From: Kaistia adipata DSM 17808
GTDB taxonomy: Bacteria > Pseudomonadota > Alphaproteobacteria > Rhizobiales > Kaistiaceae
Length of the DNA: 64,000 nucleotides
Direction: 5' to 3'
NCBI RefSeq assembly: GCF_000423225.1
Contig: NZ_KE383991.1
Span: forward strand, 1,374,217-1,438,216
Position 1 is the first letter of the stretch. The number at the start of each line of letters is the position of its first letter. The position numbers and the translations under genes are program-made. Shown piece after piece: positions 1,831 through 36,921 of the stretch. The notes beneath the pieces are model-generated. The model was given only the letters and a program-made list of their open reading frames with translations. It was not told the DNA's origin and did no database searches.

Positions 1831-3753
<1,923 letters not shown>

Positions 3754-19002: not shown

Positions 19003-19168
19003 GGTGGCGAGCCACGATGGGCCGATGGAGTGATCGATCCCGGGAACCTACAGCGTAGGTGGGCGCCGTATGTCCGGAACCAGGGCTCCGGTCAGGGACA
19101 GCTCCCTTTTGGATCGATAAGGCCCCGGGGAATTGTGATCTCCTGTCGCACCGCGCAGCCTCGCCACC
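19003..19168 (-). ncRNA. ssrS: 6S RNA
   Basis: 6S RNA mimics an open promoter and sequesters the sigma-70 holoenzyme. The minus strand between zapA and fthC contains the core I associate with rhizobial 6S RNA, including GGGAGCTGTCCCTGACC, GGTTCCGGACAT and CCCACCTACGCTGTAGGTTC. The ends pair: GGTGGCGAG at 19168-19160 with CTCGCCACC at 19011-19003. This closes a rod of about 166 nt, the usual size. A TATATT -10 element lies at 19178-19173, 5 bases before the proposed 5' end. Exact ends are inferred from pairing. Confidence 0.9.
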
Positions 19169-33296: not shown

Positions 33297-33824
33297 CTAC
33301 TCGCGGCCGCCGCCAAAAGCGCGCGCCAGCTGGCCGAGCTGGCGGCTGACCGGGTTCTCGGCCGGTGTCTCGGCATTGGCGGCGTTGTAGATGGCGTCGT
33401 CGAGCCGGATGACGCGCTCCTGCAGGCGGATCGAGCGCTCGATCAGGTCGCGCAGCCGCTCCGGCAAATCGTCCCAGCCCGCCCCTTCCGTCGCCGAGCC
33501 GAAGCCCCGCAGCCGCACCTTGGCCTTTTCGGCCCCGGCCTGCTCGAAGGTCATCTCGCCCTCGTTGACGGCGCGCTGCAGCAGCAGCCACGACGCCAGC
33601 TGCATCAGCCGCGTCGTCAGCCGCATCGATTCGGTGGCATAGCTGAGCGAACCGCCGCGCGGCAGGTCGCGCGAATCGGCCCGACCGTCACCGTCGAGAT
33701 AGGCGGCGGTCTCCTCGACCAGTAGCATGCCCTCGCGAAACAGGCCGCGAAAGGTGTCGGAATGCGCGAAACGCTGGCCGAATACGATCGGCGCGTCGAG
33801 ATGCCCAGGGCTGTCGTCTGTCAT
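33297..33824 (-). CDS. rcdA: DUF1465 protein, RcdA family
   Basis: A 175-residue helical protein of DUF1465, the family of Caulobacter RcdA, an adaptor that helps ClpXP degrade the cell-cycle regulator CtrA. Recognisable segments are TFRGLFREGMLLVEETAAYLDG and LSYATESMRLTTRLMQLASWLLLQRAV. ATG 33824 starts at MTDDSPG; a longer frame upstream crosses poorly conserved sequence. That this copy acts as RcdA is inferred from the family and from other cell-cycle genes in the window (trcR, gapR). Confidence 0.85.
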   Translation of the reverse strand: MTDDSPGHLDAPIVFGQRFAHSDTFRGLFREGMLLVEETAAYLDGDGRADSRDLPRGGSLSYATESMRLTTRLMQLASWLLLQRAVNEGEMTFEQAGAEKAKVRLRGFGSATEGAGWDDLPERLRDLIERSIRLQERVIRLDDAIYNAANAETPAENPVSRQLGQLARAFGGGRE

Positions 33825-33916
33825 GAAGTCGTTCCGTCGCGCCAGCATGCCGATCCCGCGCGGATTCGGGCGGGGCGCAAGTTTCACGGATTTTGCCGCC
33901 GATCGGATCCGAAGTC

Positions 33917-34014
33917 AAAAAAAGAGCCGCGGGAAACGGCTCTTTTGAGGCGACAGAGGGAGGAGTCCAACAGAGAAGTTACCACTCACATCCAGATCGC
34001 TGGATGGCATGATT
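33917..34014 (-). ncRNA. Candidate small RNA with anti-Shine-Dalgarno motif
   Basis: On the minus strand this gap shows a 7-bp hairpin (CATCCAG-CGAT-CTGGATG, 34006-33989), then a single-stranded stretch with CTCCTCCC (33965-33958), then a strong terminator (AAAAGAGCCG / CGGCTCTTTT plus T-run, 33946-33917). That is the layout of the rhizobial small RNAs carrying CUCCUCCC anti-SD motifs. A TTAA-N7-TTAAC box lies just upstream. The 5' end is not resolved. It could instead be the 3' UTR of the DUF1192 gene. Confidence 0.55.
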
Positions 34015-34028
34015 ACGCGCCCATAACC

Positions 34029-34044
34029 TTAACGAGTCGTTAAC
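34029..34044. promoter_or_regulatory. CtrA-type box overlapping a GANTC site
   Basis: TTAA-CGAGTCG-TTAAC matches the TTAA-N7-TTAAC consensus of the cell-cycle regulator CtrA exactly. The spacer contains GAGTC, a CcrM methylation site. It lies between DUF1192 and the candidate sRNA. Confidence 0.6.
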
Positions 34045-34078: not shown

Positions 34079-34270
34079 CTAGCTCTTGAAGAACGAGGAC
34101 GCCGCGGCGCGCGATGCCGTCTTGGCCGAGATCGCCTCGCGCAGGCGGCCGATCTCGCCCTCCAGCAGTTCGATCCGCGCCTCGAGTTCATCGATCGAAA
34201 GGCGGCCCAGCTCCTCCCCGATCCGGTGCGGCGCCGGCTTCTCCACCGGCAGATCGTCGAAAAGTGCCAT
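34079..34270 (-). CDS. DUF1192 protein
   Basis: A 63-residue protein of the alphaproteobacterial DUF1192 family, starting MALFDDLPVEKP and containing the conserved SIDELEARIELLEGEIGRL coiled-coil segment. The function is unknown. ATG 34270 lies in the 5' region of the divergent oxidoreductase gene, 95 bases from its start. The order rpmE, DUF1465, DUF1192, quinone oxidoreductase recurs, as far as I recall, in Rhizobiales. Confidence 0.88.
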   Translation of the reverse strand: MALFDDLPVEKPAPHRIGEELGRLSIDELEARIELLEGEIGRLREAISAKTASRAAASSFFKS

Positions 34271-36198: not shown

Positions 36199-36921
36199 AT
36201 GTCGACTATCCCGCTGATGCCGAAGGCAACCGCCGTATGGCTCGTCGAGAATACCTCTCTCGGCTTTGACCAGATCGCCGACTTCTGCAAGCTGCACCCG
36301 CTCGAGGTGAAGGCGATCGCCGACGGCGAGGCGGCCACCACGATCAAGGGTCTCGATCCCGTCTCGACGGGCCAGCTGACGCGCGAGGAGATCGACCGCG
36401 CCCAGCGCGATCCGAAGTACCGCCTGAAGATGGCCGAGACGCGCGTCCGCGTGCCGGTGCAGAAGCGCAAGGGCCCGCGCTACACCCCGGTCTCGCGCCG
36501 CCAGGACCGTCCGAACGCCATCCTCTGGCTGCTCAAGAACCACCCCGAGCTCAAGGACGCGTCGATCATGCGCCTCGTCGGCACCACCAAGCCGACGATC
36601 GATTCGATCCGCGACCGCAGCCACTGGAACTCGGCCAACCTGTCGCCGATGGATCCGGTGACGCTCGGCCTCTGCTCGCAGATCGATCTCGACTTCGAGG
36701 TCGAGAAGGCCGCCAAGAACGCGCCGCCGCGCGAGCCGGGCGCCGAGGGCGAGGTGCTGCTGCCGGCCGAGGAGACGACCGCCGCCGACGCGCTGGCCGC
36801 CGCCGCGCTGCGCTCCTACCGCCGCGACGAGGCGAAGGAGGACGAGCTCGACGCCGACGCCGTCTTCGCCAAGCTGAAGTCGCTGAAGGGCCCGGTCGAG
36901 GACGACGAGGACGACCAGTAA
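36199..36921 (+). CDS. trcR: DUF1013 protein, TrcR family
   Basis: A 240-residue member of DUF1013. The Caulobacter member TrcR travels with RNA polymerase and affects the cell cycle and antibiotic tolerance. The conserved start MSTIPLMPKATAVWLVENTSLGFDQIADFC is followed by a helix-turn-helix-like region (NAILWLLKNHPELKDASIMRLVGTTKPTIDSIRDRSHWNSANL) and an acidic Asp/Glu tail. CAGGAGAG lies upstream of ATG 36199. The gene name is by family homology. Confidence 0.9.
   Translation: MSTIPLMPKATAVWLVENTSLGFDQIADFCKLHPLEVKAIADGEAATTIKGLDPVSTGQLTREEIDRAQRDPKYRLKMAETRVRVPVQKRKGPRYTPVSRRQDRPNAILWLLKNHPELKDASIMRLVGTTKPTIDSIRDRSHWNSANLSPMDPVTLGLCSQIDLDFEVEKAAKNAPPREPGAEGEVLLPAEETTAADALAAAALRSYRRDEAKEDELDADAVFAKLKSLKGPVEDDEDDQ

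Follow-up and report, generated by a model that had tools for sequence, protein, structure and literature searches.

Does the short intergenic stretch upstream of rcdA in Kaistia adipata hold a small RNA gene under CtrA control and, if so, to which RNA lineage does it belong? In the window, which is the whole 64-kb stretch of DNA analysed here, the minus strand carries, in order from 34043 to 33917, a full CtrA box, a 6-bp hairpin, a C/U-rich stretch containing CTCCTCCC and a strong terminator. The features of the locus are as follows.

34079..34270, minus strand: DUF1192 gene, conserved upstream neighbour (PF06698, 7.7e-21).
34029..34043, minus strand: CtrA box, TTAA-N7-TTAA; its predicted place is over the -35 region of the small RNA promoter, with its 5' base at about -38.
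34012..34017, minus strand: putative -10-like element CGTAAT (family consensus TATWAY), from alignment column counts.
33917..34005, minus strand: predicted small RNA of about 89 nt, a diverged homologue of BjrC1505 (RF02356), with a putative start placed from the promoter layout.
33990..34005, minus strand: hairpin 1, ATCCAG-cgat-CTGGAT, supported by covariation.
33973..33987, minus strand: weakened hairpin 2, GAGTGG-TAA-CTTCTC (family form GAGTGG...CCACTC).
33947..33972, minus strand: C/U-rich stretch with a putative pairing role, holding CTCCTCCC at 33965-33958, counterpart of the family TGTTTGACGCCTCCCTGTTAAC.
33917..33946, minus strand: intrinsic terminator, with an 11-pair stem at 33946-33920 and then a T-run; helix 3 of the covariation test.
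33890..33918, minus strand: likely separate rcdA promoter, TTGACT-N17-CAAAAT, overlapping the terminator T-run.
33297..33824, minus strand: rcdA (DUF1465, the RcdA family; PF07323, 8.5e-59).
36199-36921, plus strand: TrcR (PF06242, 1.7e-67), about 2.2 kb from the RNA.

The observation from which the original prediction started was confirmed, and its reading of the locus as a whole was partly supported. The exposed anti-Shine-Dalgarno-like sequence and the strong terminator were found as described, as were the adjoining rcdA and, at 2-3 kb, trcR. The CtrA box is present, its given form TTAA-N7-TTAAC being the plus-strand reading (the minus strand gives TTAA-N7-TTAAG), and the hairpin is also present, with six pairs counted instead of the seven claimed. 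The box is the sole exact full CtrA site in the window, against a mean of 0.01 in 100 shuffles. The CTCCTCCC 8-mer alone was not above chance (2 occurrences in the window versus 3.4 expected); its weight lies in its place inside a conserved RNA, not in its frequency. A whole-window Rfam scan at curated cut-offs returned nothing besides a 6S RNA (RF00013, 74 bits) at 19006-19164 on the minus strand.

When the region itself was scanned against Rfam at E <= 10, RF02356 (BjrC1505) was matched over its full length (model positions 1-140; 36.5 bits, E 1.2e-5), the other three matches having an E of 3.7 or more. BjrC1505 is named after a small RNA of Bradyrhizobium japonicum. The likeness extends to the three helices, the conserved C/U-rich stretch, the terminator and the kind of locus occupied across the order, with DUF1192 upstream and rcdA downstream, as in the window. 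The window copy differs in scoring below the curated gathering cut-off of 50, in its weakened hairpin 2 and in the change from GCCTCCCTGTT to CTCCTCCCTCTGT; moreover, the Rfam model takes in an apparent promoter. Judged by its sequence, the RNA in the window belongs by descent with BjrC1505, a family already known to Rfam, from which it has diverged, and not with EcpR1. CcsR (cuckoo-type) and ar14 anti-Shine-Dalgarno RNAs have a CUCCUCCC-like motif in other gene settings, and neither was matched in the region scan (E <= 10).

The proposed likeness to EcpR1 was not upheld. EcpR1 is also a cell-cycle small RNA of the same order; membership was rejected because no Rfam match to it was found in the region (cmscan, E <= 10) and its gene neighbours and mode of pairing differ. 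In the available parts of the literature, EcpR1 is placed by pleD-divK in S. meliloti (PMC4414408) and is described as pairing through a GC-rich stem-loop, with an Rfam model of its own (PMC12403871), and as induced by ppGpp (PMC4414408, PMC12403871, PMC7143759).

Of the 297 genomes sampled from the order, 245 had an RF02356 match at E <= 0.001 (211 above the cut-off); a class-wide draw gave matches in 25 of 240 genomes (11 above the cut-off), and none of 14 control genomes had one. Within the window's genus, 9 of 14 genomes had a match (5 above the cut-off), and the window-type pattern occurred, among named genomes, in three records (Kaistia defluvii, K. terrae and K. granuli). The genome gave no clear second copy (68.7 bits, the next being 21.8 bits with an E of 0.19). 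Two loci of the class-wide draw carried weak matches to Rhodobacter SorY and SorX beside the BjrC1505 match (L127 1547-1628 and L130 1502-1560).

To compare gene order, we assembled a non-random set of 116 loci with 37 family labels, comprising the 30 best and 80 chosen among the higher-scoring order matches listed, 5 loci from a further search, and the window. Six loci (L008-L013) were left out, three of which (L008, L010 and L012) come from genomes that the set already covers. Of the 116 chosen loci, 114 showed RcdA on the same strand downstream of the RNA, with intervening genes allowed, and L060 and L072 gave no RcdA; 94 showed DUF1192 on the same strand upstream, and the other 22 gave no DUF1192. 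For both counts, L038 was entered after its orientation had been turned, and the RcdA rows labelled upstream in L047 and L062 are open frames that start before the RNA and run past it. The distance from the RNA end to RcdA (HMM start, 113 loci) ranged from 120 to 504 nt, with a single value of 1205. This last belongs to L092, in which a 271-codon frame (2251-3066), glycosyltransferase-like by eye, intervenes and both the box and the RNA are kept. Six of ten loci from the class-wide draw keep both neighbours (L125, L126, L129, L132, L133 and L134, with L129 belonging to the window's own order), L131 showed RcdA alone, and within the stretch covered L127, L128 and L130 showed DUF1192 alone. A coding gene in place of the RNA was rejected, since no start codon is shared (at most 16 of 116 loci).

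The RNA structure was examined in 88 non-redundant RNA parts, of which 85 were aligned; L109 and L115, with odd hairpin-1 regions, and L121, with two added hairpin bases, were left out by hand, so that pairing is slightly flattered. The three helices had 98.1% standard pairs, compared with 31-54% in slid controls, and changes on both sides were observed in 11 of 19 pairs (51 such cells versus 9.5 in shuffles, with 0 of 500 shuffles reaching 51). In hairpin 1, 97.8% of cells were paired and 4 of 6 pairs had changed on both sides. RNAalifold independently recovered the same three helices (18 pairs). Covariation among relatives, proposed earlier as a check, was thus found in all three helices. 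The TGTTTGACGCCTCCCTGTTAAC stretch was unpaired in the consensus fold, with most columns at least 90% conserved. For the window itself, the fold of 34014-33915 gave a z of -3.2 and hairpin 1 formed from 34014; when folding started at 34005, the minimum-energy structure paired part of the C/U-rich stretch and did not contain hairpin 1. Hairpin 2 of the window has one U-U mismatch and a 3-nt loop, with 5 of 6 pairs possible in the alignment columns, and is absent from the lowest-energy fold.

The CtrA box stood at one place in the alignment, with 55 exact copies, 57 with one mismatch and 3 with two mismatches (n = 115 loci, L094 having been dropped because it lies at a contig end). In a separate count over 90 nt allowing at most one mismatch, the N7 spacing occurred in 111 of 115 loci and the N4-N6 and N8-N11 spacings in 13-42 of 115; dinucleotide shuffles gave such an N7 box in about 10%. 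Nineteen further loci (85 nt examined) all carried a box with at most one mismatch, exact in 8, located 33-39 nt before the first position of the RNA model (58 in Shinella); one of these, L144, duplicates the genomic position of the already counted L048. The fixed position of the box before the RNA in 112 of 115 loci, across 37 family groups, suggests at the level of sequence that the RNA belongs to the core CtrA circuit. GANTC, the CcrM site, does sit in the box spacer of the window as GACTC, as originally noted, and is shared with one other locus (2 of the 115 aligned), so that a CcrM link was rejected as a family feature.

The distance from box to hairpin had been thought to misfit a -35/-10 layout. 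This difficulty is eased by a TATWAY-like element at a fixed place between the two, after the second TTAA (T67, A73, T86, A42/T38, A81, C44/T43 of 114-115 loci). If this element serves as the -10, the box begins near -38 and the RNA would start at hairpin 1. In Caulobacter, according to the available part of one study, full CtrA motifs placed with the 5' base between about -35 and -39 (-39 at ctrA P2) activate (PMC4287350). The layout therefore fits an activating CtrA promoter with a putative start near 34005. It follows that the 5' third of the Rfam model (positions about 1-45) is probably promoter DNA with a CtrA box and not RNA.

Homologues were also found in the Rhizobiaceae. In Sinorhizobium meliloti strain Ak57 (CP090106.1), DUF1192 and rcdA are separated by a 362-base gap in which hairpins and a terminator occur together with an exact CtrA box and a TCTCCCTGTTTT stretch. 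An Rfam scan of this locus at E <= 0.01 did not recover RF02356; a model built from the RNA part only (R1) matched it with 44.6 bits (E 3.6e-8), and had matches in Sinorhizobium sp. K101 and Shinella as well. The window was among the training sequences of R1, so its own score is not independent, unlike the R1 matches in M. bullatum, S. meliloti, Shinella and Sinorhizobium sp. K101. In each of the three Rhizobiaceae loci fetched, those of S. meliloti, Shinella and Sinorhizobium sp. K101, a further CtrA box, GATTAACCCTTTCTTAAG, lies between the terminator and rcdA (L140 2839-2853, also L141 and L143). In the predicted S. meliloti fold, sequence downstream of hairpin 1 pairs with sequence upstream of the predicted RNA start, and the start may lie further upstream in this species. 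The record CP090106.1, of 3.7 Mb, is filed as plasmid pSymB and carries rcdA and rpmE; it looks like a mislabelled chromosome.

Within Kaistia, hairpin 2 and the C/U-rich stretch vary. The window and its nearest relatives (L003-L007) have an eroded hairpin 2 and a C/U-rich stretch reading CTCCTCCCTCT, and the window's clade carries the CUCCUCCC module. Other Kaistia keep hairpin 2, as GAGTGG/CCACTT in L048 and, compensated, as GAGCGG/CCGCTC in L145-L148, which also have a longer CTCCCTCCC stretch. The CUCC-repeat stretch of these last four loci reads CTCCCTCCCTCCCTG, and the C/U-rich module thus changes fast within one genus.

Overall, RNA structure, box position, gene order and terminator are established by comparison of the loci, which supports the prediction of a discrete small RNA on the minus strand that has a terminator of its own and a CtrA promoter. 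We consider it fairly probable that the locus is a stand-alone small RNA gene of the BjrC1505 lineage, giving a CtrA-activated transcript of about 89 nt and acting in trans on Shine-Dalgarno sequences, with rcdA served by a promoter of its own. Phosphorylated CtrA would bind the box over the -35 region and activate the RNA, which would start at hairpin 1 and end at the terminator before rcdA, the latter being transcribed separately. The unpaired C/U-rich stretch would most likely pair with the G-rich Shine-Dalgarno sequences of some mRNAs, and high CtrA activity would be coupled to lowered translation of these putative targets. A stand-alone gene is supported by L092, which keeps box and RNA despite the frame before rcdA. 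It is weakened by the window copy's place under the Rfam cut-off, its weak hairpin 2 and the 34005 fold without hairpin 1, by the S. meliloti bases before the predicted start that pair after hairpin 1, and by the lack of a conserved long target among the genomes searched (see below). It is also weakened by the 104 of 115 loci in which a sigma-70-like rcdA promoter was not seen, by the second box of the Rhizobiaceae and by a CtrA motif reported, in the available part of one S. meliloti study, upstream of the start site assigned to rcdA (PMC3616915).

An alternative, which we find unlikely, is that the RNA is the leader of rcdA, a cis-acting attenuator at whose terminator transcription from the CtrA promoter would either stop or read through, tuning rcdA. 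RcdA does follow the RNA on the same strand in 114 of 116 loci, with the terminator between the CtrA box and rcdA. Promoter evidence bears on both sides. The sequence TTGACT-N17-CAAAAT was found once in the window versus 0.1 expected and starts in the terminator T-run in all six window-type Kaistia loci examined, where it speaks for two separate transcripts. Under the same rule, a sigma-70-like rcdA promoter was seen in 11 of 115 loci (1.8 expected from shuffles preserving single-base content only), namely these six and only 5 of the other 109, and this rarity outside window-type loci suits a leader. Against a leader stand the variable distance from RNA to RcdA (120 to 504 nt, and 1205 in L092 with its intervening frame), the conserved C/U-rich stretch, which the consensus fold leaves without an internal partner, and, in the part of the report available, more than one rcdA start in A. 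fabrum (PMC10469942).

Less probable still, and quite unlikely in our view, is that the box is a CtrA repressor site, or controls rcdA or a plus-strand transcript, the RNA being made in response to another signal. The box is nearly palindromic and, in the available text of Pini et al. (2015), ChIP detected CtrA binding before rcdA in S. meliloti (PMC4433202). However, the box covers the predicted -35 and not the -10, which is the activating layout in Caulobacter (PMC4287350, as available), and another box with at most one mismatch occurs within 150 nt after the terminator in only 17 of 115 loci (3% expected). That the RNA is a nuclease-cut fragment from the 3' end of the DUF1192 mRNA, with the box incidental, is very improbable: DUF1192 does precede the RNA on the same strand in 94 of 116 loci, but it was not found in 22, and the box with exact N7 spacing and the -10-like element, both fixed in position ahead of the RNA, call for an explanation.

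For the preferred stand-alone gene, trans-pairing of the C/U-rich stretch with Shine-Dalgarno sequences is inferred from its being both conserved and unpaired. No conserved long complementary target was found in 31 presumed Bradyrhizobium genomes or in 14 genomes of the window's genus. Among the former, an exact complement copy was present in 31 of 31 (checked as the small RNA locus in G061 and G236 and presumed so in the rest), and the 13 other one-mismatch matches were scattered. In the window's genus, the complement was matched in 7 of 14 genomes, with three matches off the small RNA locus. The one in the window's own genome is not beside an ATG. The other two, in G014 (L184 and L185), are near-perfect complements that are Shine-Dalgarno sequences directly before ATGs, of a sugar-binding transport protein and a DJ-1/PfpI-like protein by eye; they are a lead only, RF02356 having no match in G014. 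By duplex energy, TrcR ranked in the best 4% of 184 Shine-Dalgarno-like ATGs and DUF1192 at 16%, ranks that are not evidence as five genes were tried; the ctrA, gcrA and rcdA starts paired no better than Shine-Dalgarno-bearing ATGs generally (32%, 32% and 56%). The ctrA leader of the window's genus has a GAGGGGATT Shine-Dalgarno sequence with about six possible pairs with the RNA, no better than background. Besides the main gcrA, the window's genome has a second, weaker GcrA-like frame (G000:C2:168784-169137).

A precedent by analogy is CcnA of Caulobacter crescentus, the CCCC loop of which, in the available part of its description, pairs with GGGG in the ctrA and gcrA leaders (PMC8959179). 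Both RNAs are apparently CtrA-dependent with a C-rich element, and CcnA would thus be a case of such an RNA acting on ctrA and gcrA; CcnA differs in lying within the replication origin and not beside rcdA. The same available text states that S. meliloti has no clear CcnA homologue (PMC8959179). We regard as doubtful, though worth stating, the reading of our RNA as the rhizobial counterpart of CcnA, that is, a feedback RNA made under CtrA, placed beside rcdA since early in the class and tuning translation of ctrA or a partner.

In the literature searched, which did not include supplements or the original BjrC1505 paper, BjrC1505 was a table entry and no small RNA was described between the CtrA site and rcdA. 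The fixed CtrA promoter, the link with rcdA, the Rhizobiaceae members and the Kaistia variants of BjrC1505 were not found there and are apparently new. For Rfam, the resemblance of the 5' third of RF02356 to promoter DNA suggests a correction of the model. For S. meliloti, CtrA depletion gave no significant change in rcdA, according to the part of the study available (PMC4433202). A small RNA gene between the CtrA site and rcdA may explain binding without a change in rcdA, a simple possibility open to testing in a laboratory strain; it is complicated by the second box, the two boxes being inseparable by ChIP because fragments in that study, as available, were about 300 bp (PMC4433202). If the reading as a CcnA counterpart were true, a single intergenic stretch before rcdA would bring together the RNA and proteolysis arms of CtrA control.
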